The notes beneath the pieces were generated by a model. It made no database searches, was not told where the DNA came from, and saw only the letters and a list, made by a program, of their open reading frames with translations. Source: Sorangium aterium (GTDB taxonomy: Bacteria; Myxococcota_A; Polyangia; Polyangiales; Polyangiaceae). Taken from it: DNA of 64,000 nt. The translations under genes and the position numbers were made by a program. This document shows, in pieces, positions 21,508-34,160 of this stretch. The first letter of the stretch is position 1; every line of letters begins with the position of its first letter. The DNA lies in NCBI RefSeq assembly GCF_028368935.1, contig NZ_JAQNDK010000004.1, positions 992,001 through 1,056,000 of the forward strand. The letters run 5' to 3'.

Positions 21508-23229
21508 TCAGGGTTGGGGGGCGACGGACGAGAAAGCGTCGTTGGTCACGACGTCGAGGACCAGCTCGCGCAGCTTGTACCCCGACCCTTCGAACGAGGC
21601 GGTCAGCGCGTTGAGCACGCTCTCGTCCACCTTCCTCTCCTCGTGACCCGCTGCGTACATGTAGTACTTGCGGACGAGGCATTCCGCGACGGAGGCGTCC
21701 GCGCTGAGGGTCACGCCGAGCGCGCGCGCGTCGGCCACCGGCTGCCCGTCGAACTCGCCGCTCGGGTCGATCGGCAGGCCGTGGTCGGTCGTGCGGAAGC
21801 GGCCGATCGCGTCGAAGGTCTCGAGCGGCAGGCCCAGCGGGTCCATGTACGAGTGGCAGCCGGCGCAAGCGGGCTCGGTCCGGTGGATCTCGAGGCGCTG
21901 GCGCTTCGTGAGGGGCTTGTCCGCAGGCGGCTCCGGGAGCTCGAGAGCGACGTCGCCGGGGGGCGGCGGGATGGGCGTGCACATGAGGGCGTCGCGCATG
22001 AACTTGCCGCGCAGGGTGGGAGAGCCCTCCTTCTGGTTCGCGAACTGCGAGAGGAAGCCCGCTTTGCTGAGGATCCCGATGCGCGGGCCGTCCGCGGGCA
22101 ACGAGCGGACCTCGAAGGCGCCCGAGCCGAGGCCGGCCGTGTCGAGACCGTAGACCTGGGCGAGGTCGCTGTTGACGACGACCTTCGTGGTCGAGAACAG
22201 GTCGAGCGCGCTCGCTTGATCGTCGAACGCGAGGACCTCCCAGGTGCCTCGCATGTCGCGGACCATCGCCGCTTGCAGCGCGGGGTTGTACTCCGGAAAG
22301 AGCCCCGAGTCCTTTGCCTGGGTGCCGATCCGATCGAGCCGCATGTACTCCTCGGCGAAGGCGCCGACCGCCTCGCGCCCGGCGGGCGTCTCGAGCAGCC
22401 GCGTCGCCGCCGCGCGGATCCCCTCCACCGTTCCGAGCGCCCCGCTCGCGGCCTCGTCGAGCAGCTCCTGGTCCGGCAGGCTGTTCCACAAAAGGAACGC
22501 GAGCCGGGACGCCATCTCGTAGCCCGTCAAGCGAAGCGACCCGTCGGCGCTCGGCGCCCCGAGCTCCGGGCGATACAGGAAGTTCGGAGAGGTGAAGAGG
22601 GCCACGGTCGCCCAGCGAGCCCCCTCGACGGGGCTCTCGAGCTCGGTCGCGGCCTTCGCGGCGACGGCCGCGAGCCGGTCGAGCTCGGCGGCCTCGAGCG
22701 GGCGGCGCCATGCTCGAAGCCCGAGCGTCTGGAGGAAGCCACGCACGCAAGCGTCGTTCTCCGCGCCGCTGGGCGCGCAGCCGATGAACTGGTCCCGCTT
22801 CGCGCGATCCGCGAACACCGCGTCGACGGCGCTCTCGATGGCCGCGTGGTACTGCTCGACGCCTCGCTCCGAGGTCACGACGGTCGATGCGCCGATGACC
22901 GCAAAATTCCCGTTCCAGCTGTCGGCGTCGAGGTCATTGATATTGACTTCCACGCCGAAGACGTCGCGCACGGCGTTGCGAAATTGCGTTCTCGTCAAAC
23001 GGCGCAACATCCCGGCCGCGGGCTGGAACGGCGGGGGATCCGCGTCCGTCGGTGATCCGCCGCTGCCGACACCCGAGTCCGTCGGTGATCCGTCGCCTCC
23101 GGCAGAGGATGCCCCACCGCCCTTCGTCGTGTCACCCAGCGCGCCCGTGCACGCGGCCGCGAATGCGAGCGCGCAAATGGCGGCGCCTTCTCTTGAGAAA
23201 CGGAGCTCGTGCCAGGACGGCTTCTTCAT
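21508..23229 (-). CDS. DUF1592/DUF1588/DUF1585-type lipoprotein with CxxCH haem motif
   Basis: 573 residues. The lipoprotein signal ends AFAAAC. A Gly/Ser linker is followed by the DUF1587/1595/1592/1588/1585 series: RRLTRTQFRNAVRDVFG, then LGLRAWRRPLEAAELDRL, SPNFLYRPELG, YEMASRLAFLLWNSLPD, GILSKAGFLSQFANQKEGSPTLRG (split by me), EPACAGCHSYMDPLG, and the C-terminal ECLVRKYYMYAAGHEE. C455-A-G-C-H459 is a c-type haem attachment motif. Family knowledge: these 'planctomycete cytochrome-like' proteins are exported and presumed to carry electrons, but their substrates are unknown. First gene of the DUF1592-DUF1552-GH44 operon. Start at 23229 with a GGAGAGC ribosome site; two LacI-like palindromes lie upstream. 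Confidence 0.9.
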   Translation of the reverse strand: MKKPSWHELRFSREGAAICALAFAAACTGALGDTTKGGGASSAGGDGSPTDSGVGSGGSPTDADPPPFQPAAGMLRRLTRTQFRNAVRDVFGVEVNINDLDADSWNGNFAVIGASTVVTSERGVEQYHAAIESAVDAVFADRAKRDQFIGCAPSGAENDACVRGFLQTLGLRAWRRPLEAAELDRLAAVAAKAATELESPVEGARWATVALFTSPNFLYRPELGAPSADGSLRLTGYEMASRLAFLLWNSLPDQELLDEAASGALGTVEGIRAAATRLLETPAGREAVGAFAEEYMRLDRIGTQAKDSGLFPEYNPALQAAMVRDMRGTWEVLAFDDQASALDLFSTTKVVVNSDLAQVYGLDTAGLGSGAFEVRSLPADGPRIGILSKAGFLSQFANQKEGSPTLRGKFMRDALMCTPIPPPPGDVALELPEPPADKPLTKRQRLEIHRTEPACAGCHSYMDPLGLPLETFDAIGRFRTTDHGLPIDPSGEFDGQPVADARALGVTLSADASVAECLVRKYYMYAAGHEERKVDESVLNALTASFEGSGYKLRELVLDVVTNDAFSSVAPQP

Positions 23230-23490
23230 CTTGCTCTCCGATGATGCGACGGGGTGACCCGACGGACCGTACCGAGGATTTCTCGACCCCCGTCGAATCG
23301 ACGAGGTCTGTGGTGTCCTCCGGTGGCTCACCCTCGGTAAGAACACCAAGCACCATCGCTCGACCATCGCTTTCGCGGCGGTCGGGCGAACGGAGCTCTG
23401 GAATCGACAAGAACTCGATTGGATGACGAAGGGCGCGGCGCGCAGGGCGACCCGCTCATGCGCGAAGTAAAAGGATACCCCTTGAACCAA

Positions 23491-23506
23491 ATGTGAACGA
23501 TCACAT
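23491..23506. promoter_or_regulatory. LacI-like operator candidate 1 (ATGTGAACGATCACAT)
   Basis: A 16-bp inverted repeat with one mismatched pair and a central CpG, 262 bp upstream of the DUF1592 gene start. Its half-site TGTGA matches the second palindrome 188 bp away. CRP sites share TGTGA/TCACA but use a 6-bp spacer; here the spacer is 4. Confidence 0.6.
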
Positions 23507-23678: not shown

Positions 23679-23694
23679 TTGTGAACGTTCACAA
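23679..23694. promoter_or_regulatory. LacI-like operator candidate 2 (TTGTGAACGTTCACAA)
   Basis: A perfect 16-bp palindrome with a central ACGT, 450 bp upstream of the DUF1592 gene start and 188 bp (centre to centre) from candidate 1. Two matched sites at this spacing would suit DNA looping by a LacI-type tetramer (inference). Confidence 0.65.
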
Positions 23695-23778: not shown

Positions 23779-25590
23779 TCAGTCCGGATCGAGCGCGTAC
23801 ACGGCCGTGGTCGTCTTTCGCCCCGTGAGGTTGCGCTCGCCCAGCGCGCGCAGCGGGAACGCGTCGCCGGCGAGGTCCCTCGTCGCCGCGGAGACCAGCA
23901 CCTGGTTCGGCGCCGCGATCGCCTCGAGCCGCGAGGCCACGTTCACCACGTCGCCTATCACTGTGTACTCCATCCGCTTGTCGGAGCCGATGTTGCCGAC
24001 GATGGCCTCTCCGGAGTTCACGCCCACGCCGAGGCGGACCTCGACGTCGTACCGCTCGCGCCACTCCTCGTTCGCCGTCTCGAGGAAGCGCATCATGTCC
24101 TCCGCGGCCGCGAGCGCGCGGCGCGCGTGATCCTCCTGCGCGATCGGGGCGCCCCAGACGGCCATGACGCAGTCGCCGATGAACTTGTCGACCGTGCCCC
24201 CGTGCCGGAACACGATCTCGGTGAGCATCGAGAAGAGCTCGTTGAGGAGGGCGACCATCCGCTCGGCGTCGCGCGACTCGGCGAGCGGCGTGAAGCCGAC
24301 GACGTCGGCGAAGAGCACCGACACGGCCGCCCGCTTGCCGCCGAGGGCGAGCGGGTGCTCGCCCCGCACGATCGCGTCGACGACCGCCCTGTCCATGAAC
24401 CGGCCGAGATCGCCGCGGAGCTTCGCCTCCCGGGCGATGTCGGCCTCGCCTTGCTCCAGGTCCTGGGCCATGCGGCCGAGGGAGGTCGTGAGCTCGCCGA
24501 TCTCGTCGCGCCGCCCCCGCAGCGCTTCGCCGAGCGCGATCTCGCGCCAGCGCCGGGCGCCGATGAGCCGCGCCTGCGCGACGAGGTGCAGGATCGGGCG
24601 CGTCACGTGGCGGGCGGTGACGAGCGCGAGGGCGAGCGCGAGGACGAGCGCGCCCGCCGCGACGGCGAGGCCGCGGCGCCGCATCTCATCGAGCGCTGCG
24701 AAGGCCTCCGGCTCCGGACGCCAGATCGCGACCGCCCAGCCGAGATCGGGCACCGTCTCGATGGCGCCGATCATCTGCCGGCCGCCCTCGTCGTGCGGGG
24801 CGAGCACGGTGATCCTGTCGTTCAACCCCGCGCCGGGGGGGAGGTTACGCCAGATCGGCAAGGATGAGGCGTCGCTGCCCGGCGCGACACCGGGCACCCC
24901 GAACGCCGCGATCACCTGGCGGTTGTGGCCCGCGATGAGCAGGCGCACGGCGCGGCCCCCGAAGCGGCGCCCGGCGATCACCTCCAGGTCGCGTCCGAGC
25001 ATGTCGAGCGCCACCTCGGCGATCACGTAGCCGGCCGGGCCGCCCGGGGGAGGCGGCGCCGCGGCGCCTGCGCCTGCGCCCGGCGCGGCGCCGGCACCCG
25101 CGTCGCCGGCGGGCCGCACGCGGGCCACGAGGAGGCCGCGGGCCGGCCCGATCACGCCGAAGCCGACGCCGCGCTCGTCGGCGAGCCGGCGCAGCGCAGC
25201 CGGCGCGGCGGGGACGTCGGCGCGGGACGACGCCTTGCGGATCAAGGTGCTGATCCCCGCGTCGGGCACCTCGAGCCGCACCGCGTCGACGAGCGCGCGC
25301 GTCGCGACGAGGGCGCGCACCGAGGCGACAGCGTCCTCGTCCCGGATGGCGCCGCTCGCGGCGTGGCCGAAGATGGCCGCCGCGGCGACGGCATCGCTCT
25401 CGACATCCCGGACGAGCTGGATCGAGGCCGAGGCCACCTCGGAGAGGATCGACGCCTGCAAGCTCTCCTCGGAGGTCCGCACGGCGCGCTGGTTCACGTC
25501 CGTGAGGAGCGTGACGGCGACGGCCACGGGGACGAGCGCGATCGCCGTGAAGAGCGCGATCGCCTTCGTCTTGAGCGAGAACGCCCTCAC
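23779..25590 (-). CDS. Membrane-bound class III adenylate/guanylate cyclase with extracytoplasmic sensor and HAMP
   Basis: 603 residues. TM1 lies at about 8-30, then a large periplasmic sensor region (about 35-300, containing an Ala/Gly/Pro-rich loop), TM2 at about 303-325, HAMP (about 325-380, RDEIGELTTSLGRM), and a class III nucleotidyl cyclase domain (about 405-590). The cyclase part includes SVLFADVVGFTPLAE (first metal Asp), KFIGDCVMAVWGAP (second), and EYTVIGDVVNVASRLE with the transition-state residues. It should make cAMP (or cGMP) in response to an envelope signal. Starts with GTG at 25590, 24 bp after the OmpA-family gene on the same strand, so the two probably form an operon and the outer-membrane protein may be its partner (inference). 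Confidence 0.92.
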   Translation of the reverse strand: MRAFSLKTKAIALFTAIALVPVAVAVTLLTDVNQRAVRTSEESLQASILSEVASASIQLVRDVESDAVAAAAIFGHAASGAIRDEDAVASVRALVATRALVDAVRLEVPDAGISTLIRKASSRADVPAAPAALRRLADERGVGFGVIGPARGLLVARVRPAGDAGAGAAPGAGAGAAAPPPPGGPAGYVIAEVALDMLGRDLEVIAGRRFGGRAVRLLIAGHNRQVIAAFGVPGVAPGSDASSLPIWRNLPPGAGLNDRITVLAPHDEGGRQMIGAIETVPDLGWAVAIWRPEPEAFAALDEMRRRGLAVAAGALVLALALALVTARHVTRPILHLVAQARLIGARRWREIALGEALRGRRDEIGELTTSLGRMAQDLEQGEADIAREAKLRGDLGRFMDRAVVDAIVRGEHPLALGGKRAAVSVLFADVVGFTPLAESRDAERMVALLNELFSMLTEIVFRHGGTVDKFIGDCVMAVWGAPIAQEDHARRALAAAEDMMRFLETANEEWRERYDVEVRLGVGVNSGEAIVGNIGSDKRMEYTVIGDVVNVASRLEAIAAPNQVLVSAATRDLAGDAFPLRALGERNLTGRKTTTAVYALDPD

Positions 25591-25614
25591 GCGGAGGCCT
25601 CCGCGGGCGATGCG

Positions 25615-27405
25615 TCATTCAAGAGGGCCGTCCCTCCAGCCTGCCGCGCCCTCGTCGGTGCGCTTGCGGATCTGGAACTCCACCCTGCGGTTTTTGGCCC
25701 GGCCGTCTCGGGTGCGGTTGTCGGCGAGGGGGCGGCGCGCGCCGAAGCCGCGCGCTTCGAGGCGGCGGGCGTCGATGCCGTGCGCGGTCAGCCACGCGAC
25801 GACGGCGAGCGCGCGGCGCTGCGAGAGGCTCAGGTTCGCCTGCGCGGAGCCCTGGTTGTCCGTGTGGCCGTCGACCGCGACCCGGGCGATCTCGGGGTGC
25901 TCCTCGAGGACGGCCGCGACCTCGGAGAGCAGCTCGAAGCTCTCCGGCTCGATCTCGGCCCTGCCCGTCCGGAACTGGACCTGCTGCAGGATCACGATCT
26001 GCGAGCCCTCGATGCGCACGGCGAACGGGCAGCCGTGCGTCGCGGGATCCTCGCTCGGCTTGCCGCGCTCGTAGGGGCAGGCGTCCGCGGCGTTGGGGAT
26101 GCCGTCGCCGTCCGTATCCGCAGGGCACCCGTGCTTCGACGCCGGTTGGGACCCCGCGTTCGCGGGGGCTGCGGACGCGGGGCCGGATCCCGCGTCGGCG
26201 GCCGCGCTGCTGACCCCCGGCACGTCCGGGCAGCGATCGTCGACATCGTAGATCCCGTCGTCGTCCCTATCCGGCGGGCAGCCGCGGCGGAACGCCGGTC
26301 GGGCGCCCGCCGCCGCGGCCGGCGGGCGCGCCTCGCCGATGACCCGGGGGCAGGCGTCCTCCGCGTCGGGGACCGAGTCCCCGTCGAAGTCGGCGGCCGG
26401 AGGCGCAGCCCGCGCCGCGCCGCGAGCGCCCTTCGTCGCGGCGGACGCGCCGGCGAAGGCCGCAGGGGCGGCGGCAGGGGGCGCCGACGGAACGACGTCC
26501 GCCGCGACGCCGAGCGCCGCGAAGAAGCGCGCCTTCGGGATGCCGGGCAGCCGCCCGAAGCCGGGGCCCGCGCCCGCGTCGAGCGTGAGGGGGCCGAGCG
26601 ACCAGCGCGCGGTGAGCAGGAGCTCGGCCCCCGCGCGGCCCGGGACCTCGAGCGCCGAACCCTCGCCGGCGGCGGCCCAGACGGAGAGCTCCGACCCGAG
26701 CTGCAGCGGGCCTTTGCGGACGCCCGCGCCCGCGGCGAAGAGGACCTCGCTGCCCGTCAGGCTGTCCGACGAGGCCTTCTGGAACCGGCCCCCCGCCGAG
26801 GCCGACCAGCGGAAGCCCGGGTGCTCGGCCCCCACGATCACCCGCGGCGCATAACGCACGGCGCCCGCGCCGGCGAACGCCGCCTCGTCTCCCGTCGGCA
26901 GCCAGACGGAGAGCCCGAGCGCCGCCGCCGGCCGGAGCCCCTCCTGGGGCAGCAGCGTCACCCTTCCTCCCGCCTGCAGATCGGCGAGCGTGGCGCCGCC
27001 CGCGGGCGCCGTGACGCGGATGCCCCCGAGCGCGCCGGACGCGCCGCCCTGCTCCAGCACGAACGGCGCGTCGAGATCGAGCTTGATCCGGCGCAGGAGC
27101 TCGACGCTCGCGAGCGCGTGGAGGATCGCCTGCCGGCCCACCCACGTTACCGAGCCGGCAGGCGCGGTCCCGCGCAGGCTGAGCGGTTGATGAGAATAGG
27201 AGAACAGAAGTCCGACCGCGGGCCGGAGCTCCCCCGATACGCCGGCAGAAGGGACAGTGGATAGCCCGTCGCCCGCGGGCGCGGGAGCGAGCCTGTCGAG
27301 CGCTGTGGCCTCCTGCGCTGCGGCCGGCATGGAAGCCGTGGCCGCGGCGACGAGCAGCGGGGAGGCCAGGAGGGGCGCGATGACGCGCGCCGACCAATAC
27401 GCCAT
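25615..27405 (-). CDS. OmpA-family outer-membrane protein with thrombospondin type 3 repeats
   Basis: 596 residues. Signal peptide about 1-30. Residues about 40-330 are a beta-barrel-like region with alternating polar and hydrophobic strands. TSP type 3 calcium-binding repeats follow (DFDGDSVPDAEDACP, DRDDDGIYDVDDRCPD, DTDGDGIPNAADACP), separated by Ala/Pro-rich linkers. The C-terminal OmpA domain (about 470-585) has VDGHTDNQGSAQANLSLSQR and a final GARRPLADN...KNRRVEF peptidoglycan-binding signature. It should anchor the outer membrane to peptidoglycan. First gene of an operon with the adenylate cyclase and divergent from the LysM/FecR-like gene across only 68 bp. Confidence 0.92.
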   Translation of the reverse strand: MAYWSARVIAPLLASPLLVAAATASMPAAAQEATALDRLAPAPAGDGLSTVPSAGVSGELRPAVGLLFSYSHQPLSLRGTAPAGSVTWVGRQAILHALASVELLRRIKLDLDAPFVLEQGGASGALGGIRVTAPAGGATLADLQAGGRVTLLPQEGLRPAAALGLSVWLPTGDEAAFAGAGAVRYAPRVIVGAEHPGFRWSASAGGRFQKASSDSLTGSEVLFAAGAGVRKGPLQLGSELSVWAAAGEGSALEVPGRAGAELLLTARWSLGPLTLDAGAGPGFGRLPGIPKARFFAALGVAADVVPSAPPAAAPAAFAGASAATKGARGAARAAPPAADFDGDSVPDAEDACPRVIGEARPPAAAAGARPAFRRGCPPDRDDDGIYDVDDRCPDVPGVSSAAADAGSGPASAAPANAGSQPASKHGCPADTDGDGIPNAADACPYERGKPSEDPATHGCPFAVRIEGSQIVILQQVQFRTGRAEIEPESFELLSEVAAVLEEHPEIARVAVDGHTDNQGSAQANLSLSQRRALAVVAWLTAHGIDARRLEARGFGARRPLADNRTRDGRAKNRRVEFQIRKRTDEGAAGWRDGPLE

Positions 27406-27462
27406 CGGTCTGCTCGTATCCTATTGCCTGGTCCCTTGCAACGCCGATCTCGATCCGGTAGC

Positions 27463-27480
27463 GTGCCACCGGCGTGGCAC
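27463..27480. promoter_or_regulatory. Inverted repeat GTGCCAC-N4-GTGGCAC at a divergent start
   Basis: Perfect 7-bp arms around CGGC in the 68-bp gap between the OmpA-family and LysM/FecR-like genes. It overlaps the proposed GTG start of the latter, so a bound protein or RNA hairpin could affect initiation. It also casts some doubt on that start. Confidence 0.5.
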
Positions 27481-29954
27481 CGTCAAATGGCCAGTCTGTC
27501 GCTATCGCGGTGCTCCTCGGCTGCGCCGGCCACGCTGCGATCCACGTTGGATACGTCGGCGTGGCGAGCGCCAGAGAGCCGACGCCCGGATATCCGGAGG
27601 CGGTCATTCAATGGGGCGTGCAGGCGGGAGAGACGTGCGACGACATCGCGGCGGTCCTCTACGGCTCGTCCAAGCATGCAGCGCTGATCCAGCGGTACAA
27701 CCGCGTCGCGTGCGGCCCGGGCACGACGCTCGCCGAGGGGCTCACGCTGGTCCTCCCGGCCGAGGTGACGTCGATCCCCGACGCGAAGCTCCGGTCGATG
27801 CACCCGGACGTGCGCGCGCGCCCGGCCGGCGGCGCCTGGTCGCCCGCGGCTCAGGGGATGCCGCTGCTCACGAACTCGAGCGTCAACACGCTGGATGAGG
27901 GGAGGGCAGATATCGAGTTTGTGGACCGGACTCGGGTGCTCCTCGCGCCGAATACGCTCGTCGTCATCTACGGCACGGCGAGCCGAGCGCGGGTATCGAA
28001 GACGCCGCCCGCAGCCGTCGAGCTCGCGGACGGCGAGGTGAAGGCCGCGCTCGCCGCGCTGCGGGGACAGTCGGTCGAGGTCGCCGCGAGCGGGGGAGGC
28101 CGCGTGAGCGCGTCGTCGCGGGACACGGTGGTGCAGCGGCGCGGGGAGCGGACGACGGTCGCGGTGTTCGACGGCAAGGCAGGCGTCACGTCGGGCGGCC
28201 TCTCCGTCGTGGTCCCGAAGGACCACGGCACCCGGTTCGTGGGCAAGGCGCCGCCCGCGCGCCCGCGCCCGCTGCCGGCGCCTGTCGAGTGGACGACCGC
28301 GGACGCCGCGCAGATCGCGCTCGCCCCGGAGGGGCTCGGCGTCCTGTCGGCGTCGTGGAAGCCGGCGCCGGCCGCGGCCGGCTATCGCGTCGAGATCGCG
28401 CGCGACGCGGAGTTCAACGATCTCATCGCCCGCGAGGAGGTGAAGCCGGACGTCCTGTCGTTCCGCGCGGAGAAGATGCCGGCCGGCGCCTATTTCCTCC
28501 GGGTCCGGGTCGTCGATCGCGAGGAGTACCTCGGCGTGGGCGCGGTGCGCAGGTTCCACCTCGTCGCCGCGCGGGCCGCCGGGGGCGTCGTGCCGGCGGC
28601 GCAGGAGATCACCGCGAACCCGTACGGGATCATCGAGCTCACGCCGTCTCCCGCGCTCGAGCTCTCGCTCGACGACGGCCCGTTCGGCCCCGTCCCCGAG
28701 CGCATCGATCTGCTCCAGCGCGCCCCGCGCGCGCTCCGGCTGCGCGAGCGGGGCAGCGCCGCGGCGGAGCGTGGGAGCGACGCGGCCACGTCGCTCCCGG
28801 TCCGGTACACGAAGGTGGGCGCGGTGGTCTCGGCCTCGCGCGCGGGGTCGACGTCGACGACATCGACGACGACGCAGGGCGGGCCGGCGCTCGAGGCCCG
28901 GGTCGAGCTCGAGGGGCTCGCCGGGGTCGACGTAGGACGGCGGGTGGCGCCGCGGCTCGTCGCCCACCTGCCGGGGGGGGTGCGCTCCGTCGCGCTCGCC
29001 GGCGGCGATCGCGGCGGCGCCCTGACGGCGCGGATCCCGCTGCCCCGGGAGGCGCTGCGCCCCGGCGAGCCGCTGCGCGTCCGGCTCGACGTCGCCGACG
29101 GCCGCGGCGGCGTGATCGCGACGAGCGACGCCGAGCTGCCCGCCGCGCCGGAGGCGCCGCGAGCCGCGCCTCCGCCTGCGCCCCCGGCCGCGCCGGTGCT
29201 GGGCGCGTACCTCCCGCTCCTCCCGATGTCCGGGGTGGCCGACGGGCTCTGGCTCGCGCCGACGCCGCCCTCGGTCGCCGCGGTCGGCGCGGCCGCGGCG
29301 CGCTCCGGGGGCGGCTGGGTCGCCGCGGGCCAGGTGCGCGCGAGCGGCGCGATCGGCCCACTGGGCCTCGACGTCGCGCTCCGCTCGAACCCGGCCGGTG
29401 AGGGCGACGGCGCGGGCGTGGGCAGCACCGGCTGGTTCGGCGCGCGCCTGCGCGTCCTGCGCCTCGGGCGCTCGGAGCTCGAGCTCGGCCCCACGCTCCG
29501 CCTCGGCGTGCCCATGGCCGACGGGAGCCCGCCTGTCCGCATCGAGCCCGGGATCGCGCTCGGCGGCGCCGCGGGCCGGTTCACGTGGGTGGCCGATGCC
29601 GGGGCCCGCATCCGCGCCTCGGGCGACGGCGCGGCGGTGGAAGCGGGCGACGGCGCGGCGGCGGGCGACGGCGCGGCGGGCGGCGAGCCGGCCACGCCGG
29701 ACGTGCAGGGCTTCCTGCTGGCGGGGGCGACGGCGGATCCGGCGCCGTGGCTCCGGCTGCACGGCGCGCTGGATCTGCACCTCGTCCACCGGGAGGTCAG
29801 GGCGGACGACGTGCTCGGCGGGCTGTCGGCGGGCGTGGAGGCGGGCGGCGCGCTCTTCGGGGCGCTGTCGGTGCGGGTGAGCCCGTGGCGCGACGAGGGC
29901 GAGGGCCTTGTGACGGGGCAGATCGCGGTGGGCTTCCGCGAGGCGTCGCCGTGA
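27474..29954 (+). CDS. Exported LysM- and FecR-domain protein
   Basis: 826 residues. A short hydrophobic N-terminus (VAIAVLLGCAGHAAI) looks like a signal peptide. Residues about 40-100 resemble a LysM peptidoglycan-binding module (IQWGVQAGETCDDIAAVLYG, RYNRVACGPGTTLAEGLTLVLP). A FecR-like domain follows (DIEFVDRTRVLLAPNTLVVI, VELADGEVKAAL, GERTTVAVFDGKAGV). Then come a fibronectin-like segment (LSASWKPAPAAAGYRVEIARD) and a C-terminal Gly/Ala-rich region that could form a membrane barrel. FecR domains here probably sense or scaffold at the envelope rather than control a sigma factor, as none is adjacent. The GTG start at 27474 has no clear ribosome site. The stop overlaps the next gene's GTG (GTGA), so the kinase downstream is translationally coupled. 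Confidence 0.85.
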   Translation: MAPSNGQSVAIAVLLGCAGHAAIHVGYVGVASAREPTPGYPEAVIQWGVQAGETCDDIAAVLYGSSKHAALIQRYNRVACGPGTTLAEGLTLVLPAEVTSIPDAKLRSMHPDVRARPAGGAWSPAAQGMPLLTNSSVNTLDEGRADIEFVDRTRVLLAPNTLVVIYGTASRARVSKTPPAAVELADGEVKAALAALRGQSVEVAASGGGRVSASSRDTVVQRRGERTTVAVFDGKAGVTSGGLSVVVPKDHGTRFVGKAPPARPRPLPAPVEWTTADAAQIALAPEGLGVLSASWKPAPAAAGYRVEIARDAEFNDLIAREEVKPDVLSFRAEKMPAGAYFLRVRVVDREEYLGVGAVRRFHLVAARAAGGVVPAAQEITANPYGIIELTPSPALELSLDDGPFGPVPERIDLLQRAPRALRLRERGSAAAERGSDAATSLPVRYTKVGAVVSASRAGSTSTTSTTTQGGPALEARVELEGLAGVDVGRRVAPRLVAHLPGGVRSVALAGGDRGGALTARIPLPREALRPGEPLRVRLDVADGRGGVIATSDAELPAAPEAPRAAPPPAPPAAPVLGAYLPLLPMSGVADGLWLAPTPPSVAAVGAAAARSGGGWVAAGQVRASGAIGPLGLDVALRSNPAGEGDGAGVGSTGWFGARLRVLRLGRSELELGPTLRLGVPMADGSPPVRIEPGIALGGAAGRFTWVADAGARIRASGDGAAVEAGDGAAAGDGAAGGEPATPDVQGFLLAGATADPAPWLRLHGALDLHLVHREVRADDVLGGLSAGVEAGGALFGALSVRVSPWRDEGEGLVTGQIAVGFREASP

Positions 29955-31462
29955 GCGCGGGCGACGGCGAGCGCCCGCCGCCGGCCGGGGACCCGGACCG
30001 CACCGTGCTGAAGGGCCAGCGGGCGCCGGACGGGCGGGCGCCCGCGCCTCGACCGGGCGCCGACCCCTTTGCAGCCGCGGAGACGCTCGCCTCGGATGAT
30101 CCTGGGGCGGACGCGCGGCAGCGGACGCGCGCCGGGCGGGTCCTTGGCGGGAAGTACAACCTCGTGCGGCTCCTCGGCGCCGGCGGGATGGGGGAGGTCT
30201 ACGAGGCGGAGCACGTGCTCCTCGGCGTTCCGGTCGCGGTGAAGACGATGCACCCGCACGTCGCGATCCTCCCCGAGAGCCGGCGGAGGTTCTTCCGCGA
30301 GGCGCGCGCCGCGTCGCGGCTGGTGCACCGGAACGTGGTCAAGGTGCTCGACCTCGGGGGCGACGAGGACGGCGGCGACGGCTCGATCTACCTCGTGATG
30401 GAGCTGCTCAAGGGGCAGTCGCTCGGCGCGCTGCTCCGGGCGTCGCGCGAGCTGCTGCCGCTCGCCGAGGTCGCGGCCCTGTTCGCGGACATCCTCGACG
30501 GCGTGGGCGCGGCGCACGCGAGCGGCATCGTCCACCGCGACCTCAAGCCGGAGAACGTGCTGCTCGCCGAGCAGGACGGGGAGCGCGTCGCCAAGGTCGT
30601 CGACTTCGGCCTTGCGCACCTCGACGACCCGCTCGACGCCGGGCCGACGCTCACCTCGAAGGACATGGTCGCGGGCACGCCGGAGTACATGAGCCCGGAG
30701 CAGTGCCGCTCGCTCGCGGTGGGCCCGAGCACCGATCTGTACGCGTGCGGCTGCATCCTGACGGCGCTGTTGCAGGGAGCGGCGCCGTTCGTCGGCCTCC
30801 CGGCGGTGGAGCTCATGGCGATGCACATGTTCTCGATCCCGCCGCCGCTGCGGCGGCCGCCCGGGGCTCCGCCGGTCCCGCCGCTCCTGGAGCGGCTCCG
30901 GCTGGATCTGCTGGCGAAGCTGCCTGAGAAGCGCCCGGAGAGCGCCGCGGCGGCGCGGTCGCGGCTCGACGAGGCGATGTCGCGGGAGGCCGAGGCGCGG
31001 CGGCTGCCCGCGCGCAAGGCGGGCGCGCCGCTCGGCGACCGGGCGGAGCGGGCGCAGGCCTGGCCGGAGGGCGAGACGGCGGAGCTCGCGCCCGTGCCGG
31101 AGCGCGCTGTGGCGCTGCTCCGGCTCGCGCCGGCGGGGCAGGGGCTCAGCGAGGCGTGCGAGATCGGGCTCGACGCGCAGGGGATCCACCTCGCCGAGGT
31201 GCCGGACGCCGCAGCGCTGATCGAGGCGGGGCTGGGCGTGGCGGTGATCGACGCCGGCGCCGACGTGGAGGGCGCGTGCGCGCTGCTCGAGGCGCTCGGC
31301 CGCGCGGCGCCGGGCGTGCGCGCCGTCGTGTGCGCTGCCGGGCTCTCCTCGGACCGGATGAACGCGCTCGTCGCGGCGGGCGCCGCGGACGTGGCGCGTT
31401 ATCCGGTCGCGCCGGACGCGCTGTCTCGAAAGATCGCGCGGGTGGTGCGCCGGGGGCGCTGA
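29951..31462 (+). CDS. Hanks-type Ser/Thr protein kinase with C-terminal degenerate receiver-like domain
   Basis: 503 residues, no membrane segment. The kinase domain (about 60-345) is intact: LLGAGGMGEVYE, K98 in VAVKTMHP, catalytic D197 in VHRDLKPENVLL, D218 in VVDFGLAH, and GTPEYMSPEQC. The C-terminal ~125 residues read like a response-regulator fold: LIEAGLGVAVIDAGAD at the phospho-Asp strand, GVRAVVCAAG, and GAADVARYPVAPDALSRKI. The conserved Lys before Pro is replaced by Tyr, so phospho-signalling is doubtful. Starts with GTG at 29951 inside the stop of the LysM/FecR-like gene, implying coupled synthesis and a shared task. It may phosphorylate a protein of that envelope system (inference). 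Confidence 0.92.
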   Translation: MSAGDGERPPPAGDPDRTVLKGQRAPDGRAPAPRPGADPFAAAETLASDDPGADARQRTRAGRVLGGKYNLVRLLGAGGMGEVYEAEHVLLGVPVAVKTMHPHVAILPESRRRFFREARAASRLVHRNVVKVLDLGGDEDGGDGSIYLVMELLKGQSLGALLRASRELLPLAEVAALFADILDGVGAAHASGIVHRDLKPENVLLAEQDGERVAKVVDFGLAHLDDPLDAGPTLTSKDMVAGTPEYMSPEQCRSLAVGPSTDLYACGCILTALLQGAAPFVGLPAVELMAMHMFSIPPPLRRPPGAPPVPPLLERLRLDLLAKLPEKRPESAAAARSRLDEAMSREAEARRLPARKAGAPLGDRAERAQAWPEGETAELAPVPERAVALLRLAPAGQGLSEACEIGLDAQGIHLAEVPDAAALIEAGLGVAVIDAGADVEGACALLEALGRAAPGVRAVVCAAGLSSDRMNALVAAGAADVARYPVAPDALSRKIARVVRRGR

Positions 31463-32648: not shown

Positions 32649-34160
32649 TCAAAGCTCGCCGCTGAGCGTCGGCGGTGTCCAGTCGATGTGGTCCAGGTGG
32701 TTGGGTTTATTGGGCAGGTCCGTGGCGAAATTGCCCGTCGCCGTACCGTCGTTGCCCTTCAGGAACCTGTCGACCATGGCGTTGAGGGATGCAGTGTACT
32801 GCGAGCGCCAGCTGCAGTGGCTCCCACCTGCGCCCGTGTAGGCGATGTGGTCTCCGACGCCGAGCGCCTCGAAGATCATCTTGCCGACGTTGGCGGTGAC
32901 CCACGCCGAGTTCCGATCGAGCCCGTTGTACATGGTGCTCGGATTGTCCACGATGTAGAGGCCGCGTGGAGCGATGAGGCCCATCATCTCGTGCATGTCG
33001 ACGGGCAGCTTGTTCGTGTTGTCGGCCCCAGCGTTGTTGCCCGTGGTGAACTGACCGAGCGCCACCTCCGAAAGCCAGCGGACGTAGCTGATGCCATGAT
33101 AGGGCCATTCGGAGCCGCTGTAGCTATCGAGCACCTCGACGAGGCGCAGGCCTATCGTGCCCCCGAGACCCGACTCCACCGGGATGGTCAAGGCGATGCG
33201 GTTGTCGAGCACGCCGGCGACGAAGGCACCCTTGCCCCAGCGTGAGCAACCCGTCACACCCACCCGGCGTGGATCGATGACGCCGGGGTTCTGCTCCAGG
33301 ACGTCGAGGACGCGACTGATCTGCCAGGCCTGCGCCGTGAGGTAACCCGCGGGATGGTCCGAACCGTACACGCTGTAGAACGGCCCGTTCTTCGCGCCGC
33401 TGGTGCCTTGCGACTCGACCGCGGTGAAGGTGATCGTCGCGACGCCGCTCGGAACTGGCATGCCGCTCAGGCCGCCGTAGCCGATGATCGCCGGGGCGGG
33501 CGCGGTCGCCCCGTTCATGTTCACGGTGAGGTTGAACGAGGCGCTGCCGCTGCCATCCTTGACCTCGACCGTGATCCTGCTGTTGCTCACGGTACCGGAC
33601 ACGGATCCCTTTGCCGGGACGGGCTTGTCGCCGTAGATGAACTTGTAGGCTTGCTGGAGGATCTCTTCGCGCCGGCAGGCCCACTCGCTCTTGCTGGCGA
33701 TGCGGTTGCCGTCCATCTTCTTGAAGGGGTCCGGCAGCTTCGAGTTCGCCGTGAGCGAAGCGACGCTCGGCATCGGTCCGACGGTGCACCCGGCTCCAGG
33801 GTTTTCCACCTCGCCCCACTCGGCGCTCACGGCGTTGCCGCCGTCGCCGCTGCCCCCGGCACCACCGGTTCCCGGCGCTCCGCCCGTTCCGGCCGGGCCC
33901 CCGCCACCGGTGCTGGCTTCGCCCGTCGTCACGTCGCCGCCCGTCCCGGTCGGGGTACCGCCCGAAGAAGAGGAAGGTCCACCAGTGCCCGTCGGCGTCC
34001 CTCCGGTGCCGGTGCCGGTGCCGCCCCCCGTGCCGACTGTAGAGCTTCCTCCTGAACCGACAGGATCCGATTCGCCTCCGGTGGCGCAGGCGGCAAGCAT
34101 CCAAGGCAGCGCTGCGAACAAGGCCAAAGAGATCGTGGGACGTGCAGTGCGTAGACGCAT
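32649..34160 (-). CDS. CE15 glucuronoyl methylesterase (lipoprotein)
   Basis: 503 residues. Signal and lipobox MLAACATGG are followed by a Gly/Thr/Ser linker (about 25-110). The catalytic domain matches carbohydrate esterase family 15: NGATAPAPAIIGYGGLSG, then RRVGVTGCSRWGKGAFVAG with nucleophile S306, catalytic acid E329 in PVESGLGGT, and H448 in TGAGGSHCSW. The Ser-Glu-His arrangement is that of fungal and bacterial glucuronoyl esterases. Family knowledge: CE15 cleaves ester links between lignin alcohols and 4-O-methyl-glucuronic acid of xylan. Start ATG 34160 follows GGAGCG. It is the first gene of a two-gene operon. Confidence 0.93.
   Translation of the reverse strand: MRLRTARPTISLALFAALPWMLAACATGGESDPVGSGGSSTVGTGGGTGTGTGGTPTGTGGPSSSSGGTPTGTGGDVTTGEASTGGGGPAGTGGAPGTGGAGGSGDGGNAVSAEWGEVENPGAGCTVGPMPSVASLTANSKLPDPFKKMDGNRIASKSEWACRREEILQQAYKFIYGDKPVPAKGSVSGTVSNSRITVEVKDGSGSASFNLTVNMNGATAPAPAIIGYGGLSGMPVPSGVATITFTAVESQGTSGAKNGPFYSVYGSDHPAGYLTAQAWQISRVLDVLEQNPGVIDPRRVGVTGCSRWGKGAFVAGVLDNRIALTIPVESGLGGTIGLRLVEVLDSYSGSEWPYHGISYVRWLSEVALGQFTTGNNAGADNTNKLPVDMHEMMGLIAPRGLYIVDNPSTMYNGLDRNSAWVTANVGKMIFEALGVGDHIAYTGAGGSHCSWRSQYTASLNAMVDRFLKGNDGTATGNFATDLPNKPNHLDHIDWTPPTLSGEL

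Follow-up and report, generated by a model that had tools for sequence, protein, structure and literature searches.

The published system nearest to the locus described here is the BiofilmReg operon of Burkholderia contaminans, which in the available extracts of its description encodes a COG4254 LysM-FecR protein, a CHASE2 histidine kinase, a CreB-type regulator and DUF4136, and whose authors there propose different signals as the inputs of the LysM/FecR protein and of the kinase (PMC5192318). The present locus lies in a window of 64,000 nucleotides, the whole stretch that was analysed, from Sorangium aterium (NZ_JAQNDK010000004.1, positions 992,001-1,056,000; host genome 13.5 Mb). It comprises four genes, all found where the original prediction had placed them: the minus strand encodes a cyclase and an OmpA/TSP3 protein, the plus strand a LysM/FecR protein and a serine/threonine kinase (Table 1). 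Comparisons with relatives indicate that the four genes very probably form one ancestral, co-inherited trans-envelope signalling module. As in BiofilmReg, so far as the extracts describe it, a LysM and FecR protein with predicted export stands beside a receptor of the inner membrane and a relay in the cytoplasm. However, CHASE2, histidine kinase and response regulator are replaced in the block by a cyclase with Cache-like and HAMP regions and by a Ser/Thr kinase. Pfam scans gave no match to a CHASE2 or histidine kinase domain in 10 family-level and nine distant module cyclases and no CreB-type response regulator among the four window proteins; an FHA-sigma54 activator adjoins many relatives instead. 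The FN3 domain and predicted outer-membrane barrel of the FecR protein, the OmpA partner and, often, the FHA-sigma54 activator are further differences from BiofilmReg.

The FecR domain recalls FecA-FecR-FecI/PupR signalling, and its predicted fold is near the PupR C-terminal signalling domain (6ovk). However, the window protein has neither a cytoplasmic anti-sigma part nor an inner-membrane helix after the signal peptide, and its partners are a cyclase and a kinase. No TonB-dependent receptor with a signalling domain and no extracytoplasmic function sigma factor occurs among the four window proteins, no genome-wide search for a distant partner having been made. With OmpA and OprF the block shares an OmpA C-terminal domain with an invariant Asp and Arg 15 residues apart and, in a distant LysM/FecR protein, an OprF-like 8-strand barrel, whereas LysM, FecR and FN3 domains precede the barrel in the second outer-membrane protein. 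We know of no OmpA linked to a cyclase/kinase pair. CyaA and CyaB of Myxococcus xanthus, a member of the same phylum, are membrane receptor cyclases for which no LysM/FecR or kinase partner is known to us. The fifth gene seen near relatives resembles FHA-sigma54 enhancer-binding proteins in its FHA and Sigma54_activat domains, and no description of their linkage to a cyclase/kinase/LysM-FecR module was found in the PMC literature. The same literature (titles and abstract starts, subscription papers aside) held no named system of the present composition, as had been predicted. The conserved module is made of known parts and is very probably a LysM-FecR-linked envelope signalling system with a new output combination, strong in its linkage and hypothetical in its mechanism. 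The gene table of Paraliomyxa miuraensis lists side by side an OmpA family protein of 235 amino acids (orf25), a LysM protein of 771 (orf26), a protein kinase of 441 (orf27) and a HAMP protein of 599 (orf28) (PMC10051162). By names and sizes, in a comparison of descriptions only, these represent the same module, which the available part of that source lists without comment. This likely counterpart flanks the miuraenamide biosynthetic cluster, and the table also includes an FHA-domain protein and additional OmpA proteins (PMC10051162).

The linkage and co-occurrence of the genes were obtained by computation from Myxococcota genomes. The prediction that the four genes are conserved together, for which lack of conservation had been set beforehand as the refutation, was borne out by synteny. 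Among 11 stretches from close relatives searched by tblastn, all four genes lie together in seven genomes and are spread over two contigs in G011 and G028. Within the seven, the cyclase gene of G036 is ~3.3 kb off and the LysM/FecR gene of So0157-2 (G004) is split; Sorangium cellulosum So ce26 (G001) and So0157-2 belong to the same genus as the window. The OmpA, cyclase, LysM/FecR and kinase genes form one co-directional run in G018, as do the first three, up to the contig end, in G011. The seven open reading frames that flank the block in the window, only two of which are domain-supported as genes, had no match at E ≤ 1e-5 in the 11 relatives' stretches; the block is thus sharply bounded there.

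Among 98 family genomes, high-scoring homologues of the LysM/FecR, kinase and cyclase genes occur in 29, 29 and 30, respectively; all three are present in 28 genomes, some in three and none in 67 (Fisher p 5e-21 to 5e-24, genomes being treated as independent). The three partial genomes are fragmented (G002, 890 contigs; G005, 1270; G023, 570), and G005, counted as without LysM/FecR, carries a LysM/FecR fragment at a contig end. The cyclase cut of ~500 bits, chosen after viewing the list, kept 30 of 39 matched genomes. The nine left out have only a divergent module cyclase (~375-477 bits), and the divergent module was seen in five of them (L101, L105, L112, L117 and L118). The category "none" thus means none of the high-scoring version, and at least five of the none or partial genomes carry a divergent version of the module. 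The single-contig genome G003, of the same genus, has no high-scoring homologue of the LysM/FecR, cyclase or kinase gene.

Across the phylum, the LysM/FecR profile matched 76 of 282 Myxococcota genomes. Neighbours were scored around 48 non-window LysM/FecR matches down to 1.7e-31 (L082 and L083 being halves of one module), a cyclase or kinase domain being counted at 200 bits or more within 8 kb. A cyclase was found at 38 loci, a kinase at 38 and both at 36. The controls, 12 further FecR loci in the genome of the window, had no cyclase and one kinase (both enzymes at 0/12 vs. 36/48, p 2e-6). At E ≤ 1e-3 the sole cyclase match in the controls was one 15-bit fragment in L140, so the cyclase result is independent of the 200-bit cut. 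The cyclase profile has 18 matches in the window's genome, of which the module cyclase scores 1008 bits and the runner-up 210, and kinase matches number at least 150; a chance kinase neighbour is therefore not rare and a chance cyclase neighbour is. Several of the 12 relatives' loci without both enzymes are cut by contig ends. All four genes are present in 16 of the 22 loci from Sorangium, Polyangium, Minicystis rosea and metagenome-assembled genomes; contig ends truncate five others, and the sixth, L158, is a true exception. Outside the 48, L117-L119 also hold the cyclase, kinase and LysM/FecR genes. Among 11 weaker LysM/FecR matches (L129-L139), L130 has the three genes, L139 has the kinase and LysM/FecR genes at a contig end, and the rest are without.

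The cyclase, kinase and LysM/FecR genes are co-directional in 34 of the 36 loci. Their order in 38 co-directional loci (L117-L119 and L130 added) is cyclase-kinase-LysM/FecR in 32, cyclase-LysM/FecR-kinase in three and LysM/FecR-cyclase-kinase in three. Stop and start codons overlap by 4 or 1 bases at the junctions cyclase-kinase (28/36), kinase-LysM/FecR (21/32), LysM/FecR-kinase (18/27), OmpA-cyclase (13/37), cyclase-LysM/FecR (3/10) and OmpA-LysM/FecR (7/7); these are upper estimates, since the start codon nearest the preceding stop was taken and some loci were fetched twice (e.g. L043/L163). The original prediction of two pairs was correct for the window itself, in which an outer-membrane/peptidoglycan protein gene adjoins a sensor cyclase gene on the minus strand (OmpA and Guanylate_cyc matches), the LysM/FecR gene end and the kinase start share a GTGA overlap at 29951, and the divergent pairs are separated by the 68-bp gap that it had described. 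Because relatives mostly carry the genes co-directionally, the two pairs are not separate operon modules; on the sequence comparisons there is a single module, rearranged into a divergent layout in Sorangium. The tree distances of the LysM/FecR, cyclase and kinase proteins correlate (r 0.74-0.86, n = 47 loci; largest permuted value 0.17), which shared descent alone could produce. A search of plasmid records with the LysM/FecR core gave nothing at E ≤ 1e-3. The genomes G357, G038, G217, G239, G228 and G173 hold the module, or its LysM/FecR gene, in two or three copies and are useful for testing whole-set divergence.

Domain architectures, catalytic residues and folds were likewise computed, with Pfam scans at curated cut-offs for the domain calls on the window proteins. 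The FecR, OmpA, TSP_3, Guanylate_cyc and Pkinase parts of the predicted composition were recovered, whereas HAMP and LysM are sub-threshold in the window copies and are supported via orthologues. The FecR match of the window protein (1e-5) has 26.3 bits vs. a cut-off of 24, and FecR was matched at E ≤ 0.5 in all eight orthologues. LysM has no significant Pfam match in the window copy (0.23); it exceeds the cut-off in three of five distant orthologues scanned, and the AlphaFold model of the window protein has a strand-helix-helix-strand pattern at residues 44-95. The C-terminal end of this model (mean predicted local distance difference test score, pLDDT, 69; predicted template modelling score, pTM, 0.46) is a 12-strand barrel, and the best structural match of the model is NanC (Z 14.0, root-mean-square deviation (r.m.s.d.) 3.0, 158 aligned residues), with FapF and Tsx lower down the list. 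The model of the distant relative L095 (pLDDT 81) has an OprF-like C-terminal 8-strand barrel (Z 18.1, r.m.s.d. 1.8, 124 aligned), an FN3 domain at residues 258-359 and a FecR region resembling the C-terminal signalling domain of PupR (Z 14.6, r.m.s.d. 2.5, 130 aligned). Aligned N-termini of the LysM/FecR proteins carry Sec-type signal peptides (by eye), directly followed by LysM, and most copies have no later hydrophobic segment, L098 and L104 being exceptions. The models and N-termini suggest that the LysM/FecR protein is an exported outer-membrane beta-barrel protein. Disrupted copies were also observed. The homologue of So0157-2 (L040:10760-13193) is split across reading frames, as a pseudogene or by sequencing error; the sequence at L172:7978-10304 is in two opposite-strand pieces, resembling an intragenic inversion; and So ce26 has, ~6.5 kb from the intact pair, a remnant second copy of the divergent OmpA//LysM-FecR starts (L039:3177-3704).

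The OmpA/TSP3 protein matches OmpA at 7.7e-23 and TSP_3 at 7e-11. D516 and R531 of its OmpA domain are invariant in 10/10 sequences, and from their spacing we take them to be the wall-peptide-binding Asp and Arg as in Acinetobacter OmpA. The catalytic domain of the cyclase matches Guanylate_cyc at 1.2e-30. HAMP scores 22.6 bits in the window cyclase, under the cut-off of 25; it was matched at E ≤ 0.5 in 10/10 aligned orthologues (best 3.1e-8) and above the cut-off in eight of nine distant ones. Two hydrophobic segments ~260 residues apart are present in the cyclases of the 21 loci examined, with a weak third in L092. The region between them matches dCache_1 at E ≤ 0.1 in six of nine distant cyclases (best 3.8e-7, 30.3 bits) and in one of 10 family-level cyclases (best 0.013), and is accordingly called Cache-like only. 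The catalytic D, D, K, T, N and R are intact in 67/67 cyclase sequences (fetched loci, duplicates included). The Lys and Thr substrate pair is the mark of class IIIb adenylate cyclases, the two Asp bind metal, and the Asn and Arg stabilise the transition state. Adenylate cyclases are the best PDB matches of the catalytic domain, and from the class IIIb residues the product should be cyclic AMP (cAMP).

The window kinase matches Pkinase at 2.4e-42. The VAIK Lys is present in 90 and the HRD Asp, Asn and DFG Asp in 91 of 92 kinase matches, the remainder being gaps; these 92 are all matches in the fetched stretches, non-module kinases included. When hydropathy was scanned, starting 80 residues ahead of the kinase domain, no transmembrane segment was found in 21/21 relatives' loci, and the kinase looks soluble. 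Its C-terminal domain profile matches PDB receiver domains at 2.8e-6. The window copy lacks the acidic pair and Lys of receivers and the Asp is absent in several relatives (by eye); with this incomplete acidic pocket the domain was read as a pseudo-receiver. At least four Lys/Arg lie within the last 12 residues of 56 of 59 kinases, a basic tail that could possibly dock on the membrane or the cyclase. Since the kinase has no transmembrane segment and the LysM/FecR protein appears to be an exported barrel, no direct contact between them is expected, and the signal would have to pass via the cyclase or another inner-membrane protein.

An all-against-all BLAST of the neighbours gave several clusters that seemed to be a sigma54 activator read in the wrong frame, and these pointed to the fifth gene. 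Of 78 module loci (with duplicates counted), 31 have an open reading frame with activator motifs in the fetched stretch, as against 0/12 controls, and both FHA and Sigma54_activat were present in 10/10 activators scanned (Pfam). The best match of the Polyangium activator in the window's genome (68%; the next of 88 matches is at 53%) lies beyond the window at C4:950111-951526, ~64 kb away from the module. Module and activator are separated by ~14 kb in So ce26, by 25 kb in So0157-2 and by ~0.1 kb in G036. G003 and G024, which have no high-scoring version of the module, have activator matches of only 53% and 47%. FHA domains bind phosphothreonine, according to the portion of the source available (PMC10470591). 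The FHA-sigma54 activator is for this reason a natural candidate for the kinase output, as its recurrence near the module also suggests.

Module and mechanism, taken as one reading, are probably the best overall explanation of these observations, with the specific trans-envelope mechanism being the more tentative part. The two outer-membrane proteins, each a predicted barrel with a periplasmic wall-binding domain (OmpA in one, LysM in the other), would span from the outer membrane to the peptidoglycan. The FecR/FN3 part of the LysM/FecR protein would touch or gate the periplasmic, Cache-like sensor region of the cyclase in the inner membrane, and HAMP would then switch cAMP synthesis. The co-translated soluble kinase, with its pseudo-receiver and basic tail, would dock on the cyclase or the inner membrane, be switched by the cyclase or its product, and phosphorylate targets read by the FHA-sigma54 activator. 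Wall sensing by the module is plausible from the domain content. We infer the protein contacts, the signal (wall integrity or the outer-membrane-to-wall distance), the cAMP product and the output route. In its widest form the proposal, which we hold with some doubt, is a Myxococcota-wide ancestral relay in which the outer-membrane/wall state, read by two barrels, is passed at the same time to cAMP and to Ser/Thr phosphorylation, with the FHA-sigma54 activator reading the phosphorylation; it would be a bacterial envelope-stress pathway in which neither a histidine kinase nor an anti-sigma factor takes part.

Several observations weigh against this reading. OmpA lies within 8 kb at only 26 of the 48 phylum-wide loci, and all four genes at 20. 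Both enzymes are missing above threshold at L124, L126 and L127, although each is flanked by ~8 kb on either side, L122 has a cyclase and no kinase above threshold, and L158 lacks cyclase and OmpA despite 10 kb on one side. The activator frame is in 31/78 loci, not in all. Shared descent accounts for part of the co-occurrence and of the tree correlation, and the bit-score cut for the cyclase was post hoc. The window LysM/FecR model is of middling confidence (pLDDT 69, pTM 0.46), and the Cache match is under the Pfam cut-off (45 bits) in every cyclase scanned. An aromatic C-terminal residue is present in only 17/58 LysM/FecR proteins (for L039 and possibly L172 the copy counted was a remnant or incomplete, and the L040 gene is split), so that the classical outer-membrane protein end signal is not general among them and was dropped as proof of a barrel.

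Three other explanations were weighed. The Cache-like cyclase domain might bind a small molecule directly, the two barrel proteins being outputs or clients (pore, adhesin or structural tether) rather than sensors. Cache-type domains are typically ligand sensors, six of nine distant cyclases have dCache_1 matches (best 3.8e-7, all under the cut-off), the barrels resemble NanC, Tsx, FapF and OmpA-type proteins, and two short LysM/FecR proteins (L101, L112) have no obvious terminal barrel by eye. However, the predicted FecR region is close in fold to the PupR domain, known for signalling in the periplasm (Z 14.6), and the overlaps of the LysM/FecR gene with the enzyme genes come in varied orders, and we regard this explanation as unlikely, although the strongest of the three. 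An osmosensor is less probable still. It would have the cyclase report osmolarity like CyaA and CyaB of Myxococcus xanthus, presumably similar in their sensor-HAMP-cyclase layout, while the barrels merely tether the outer membrane to the wall. CyaA and CyaB are involved in osmosensing, as stated in the part of the source available (PMC7643160); however, they were likened by description and not by sequence homology, and the constant kinase partner would be left unexplained. That two independent operons merely adjoin is very improbable. Their divergence in Sorangium and the ~3.3 kb between the cyclase and OmpA genes in G036 (L041) would fit such an arrangement, which as an account of conservation is contradicted by the near all-or-none presence, by the co-directional runs in relatives and by G003, without a high-scoring homologue of any of the three genes. 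Independent regulation within Sorangium is possible.

The inverted repeat that had been predicted over one start is present, spanning the GTG start of the LysM/FecR gene, but is not a conserved regulatory element, being broken in So ce26 (a 6-bp insertion and one change) and mutated in So0157-2. A role as an operator was rejected on these grounds, and the repeat is probably incidental. The pattern, chosen after the fact, is expected 0.02 times in the window with at most one mismatch. Apart from the repeat, the 68-bp gap hardly varies between the three Sorangium genomes. TTGCAA at 27436 fits a -35 element in both directions (TTGCAA-17-TAGCGT and TTGCAA-17-TACGAG) and might be shared by both divergent promoters; the inference is weak, since conservation extends over nearly all of the gap and the hexamers fit the consensus poorly.

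Elsewhere in the window, the palindrome TGTGAACG(T/A)TCACA occurs in two copies (23492-23505 and 23680-23693) upstream of a DUF1592/DUF1588-type open reading frame (21508-23490, minus strand). With at most two mismatches it is matched twice in the window vs. 0.10 expected, and a single site in the complete genome has its 16-bp form, TTGTGAACGTTCACAA; we liken the palindrome, as an assumption, to a LacI- or CRP-type operator. The frame carries PSD2, PSD3, PSD4, PSD5 and PSCyt3 domains (Pfam), a set that we take to be typical of Planctomycetes. The frame at 32649-34160 (minus strand) matches the fungal glucuronyl esterase family at 4.8e-68.

Table 1. Features of the four-gene locus in window coordinates.
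Feature	Position	Strand	Basis
Predicted receptor-type adenylate cyclase, 603 aa	23779..25590	-	two transmembrane segments, ~260-aa periplasmic sensor, HAMP, class III catalytic domain
Cyclase catalytic domain	23806..24327	-	Pfam; D,D,K,T,N,R conserved
HAMP domain	24451..24618	-	sub-threshold in window copy; over cut-off in 8/9 distant orthologues scanned
Approximate periplasmic sensor region	24691..25491	-	transmembrane positions in relatives; dCache_1 matches in distant orthologues
OmpA/TSP3 outer-membrane protein, 596 aa	25615..27405	-	signal peptide (by eye), N-terminal barrel-like region
OmpA peptidoglycan-binding domain	25687..25974	-	Pfam; invariant D516, R531
Thrombospondin type 3 repeats, approximate limits	26071..26391	-	Pfam TSP_3
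Divergent intergenic region, 68 bp	27406..27473	.	gap between OmpA/TSP3 and LysM/FecR genes
Inverted repeat GTGCCAC-N4-GTGGCAC	27463..27480	.	spans GTG start of LysM/FecR gene
Predicted LysM-FecR-FN3-beta-barrel outer-membrane protein, 826 aa	27474..29954	+	domain scan and predicted structure
LysM-like region, residues 44-95	27603..27758	+	secondary structure of model; orthologue matches
FecR domain, residues 137-236	27882..28181	+	Pfam match
FN3 domain, residues 267-365	28272..28568	+	predicted structure
Predicted C-terminal 12-strand beta-barrel, residues 599-825	29268..29948	+	model and structural match
Apparently soluble Ser/Thr kinase, 503 aa	29951..31462	+	Pkinase match; GTGA overlap with preceding LysM/FecR gene
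Kinase catalytic domain	30155..30949	+	catalytic residues intact
C-terminal pseudo-receiver with basic tail	31091..31459	+	profile match to PDB receivers; tail composition

For most myxobacterial eukaryotic-like kinases we know of no established input. Such kinases number 317 in Sorangium So ce56 and 353 in Minicystis rosea, according to the part of the survey available (PMC8436480). A single kinase with fixed partners from the outer membrane to a transcription factor makes input, relay and output directly testable. If the proposed reading is true, one envelope sensor would be coupled to both cAMP and protein phosphorylation.

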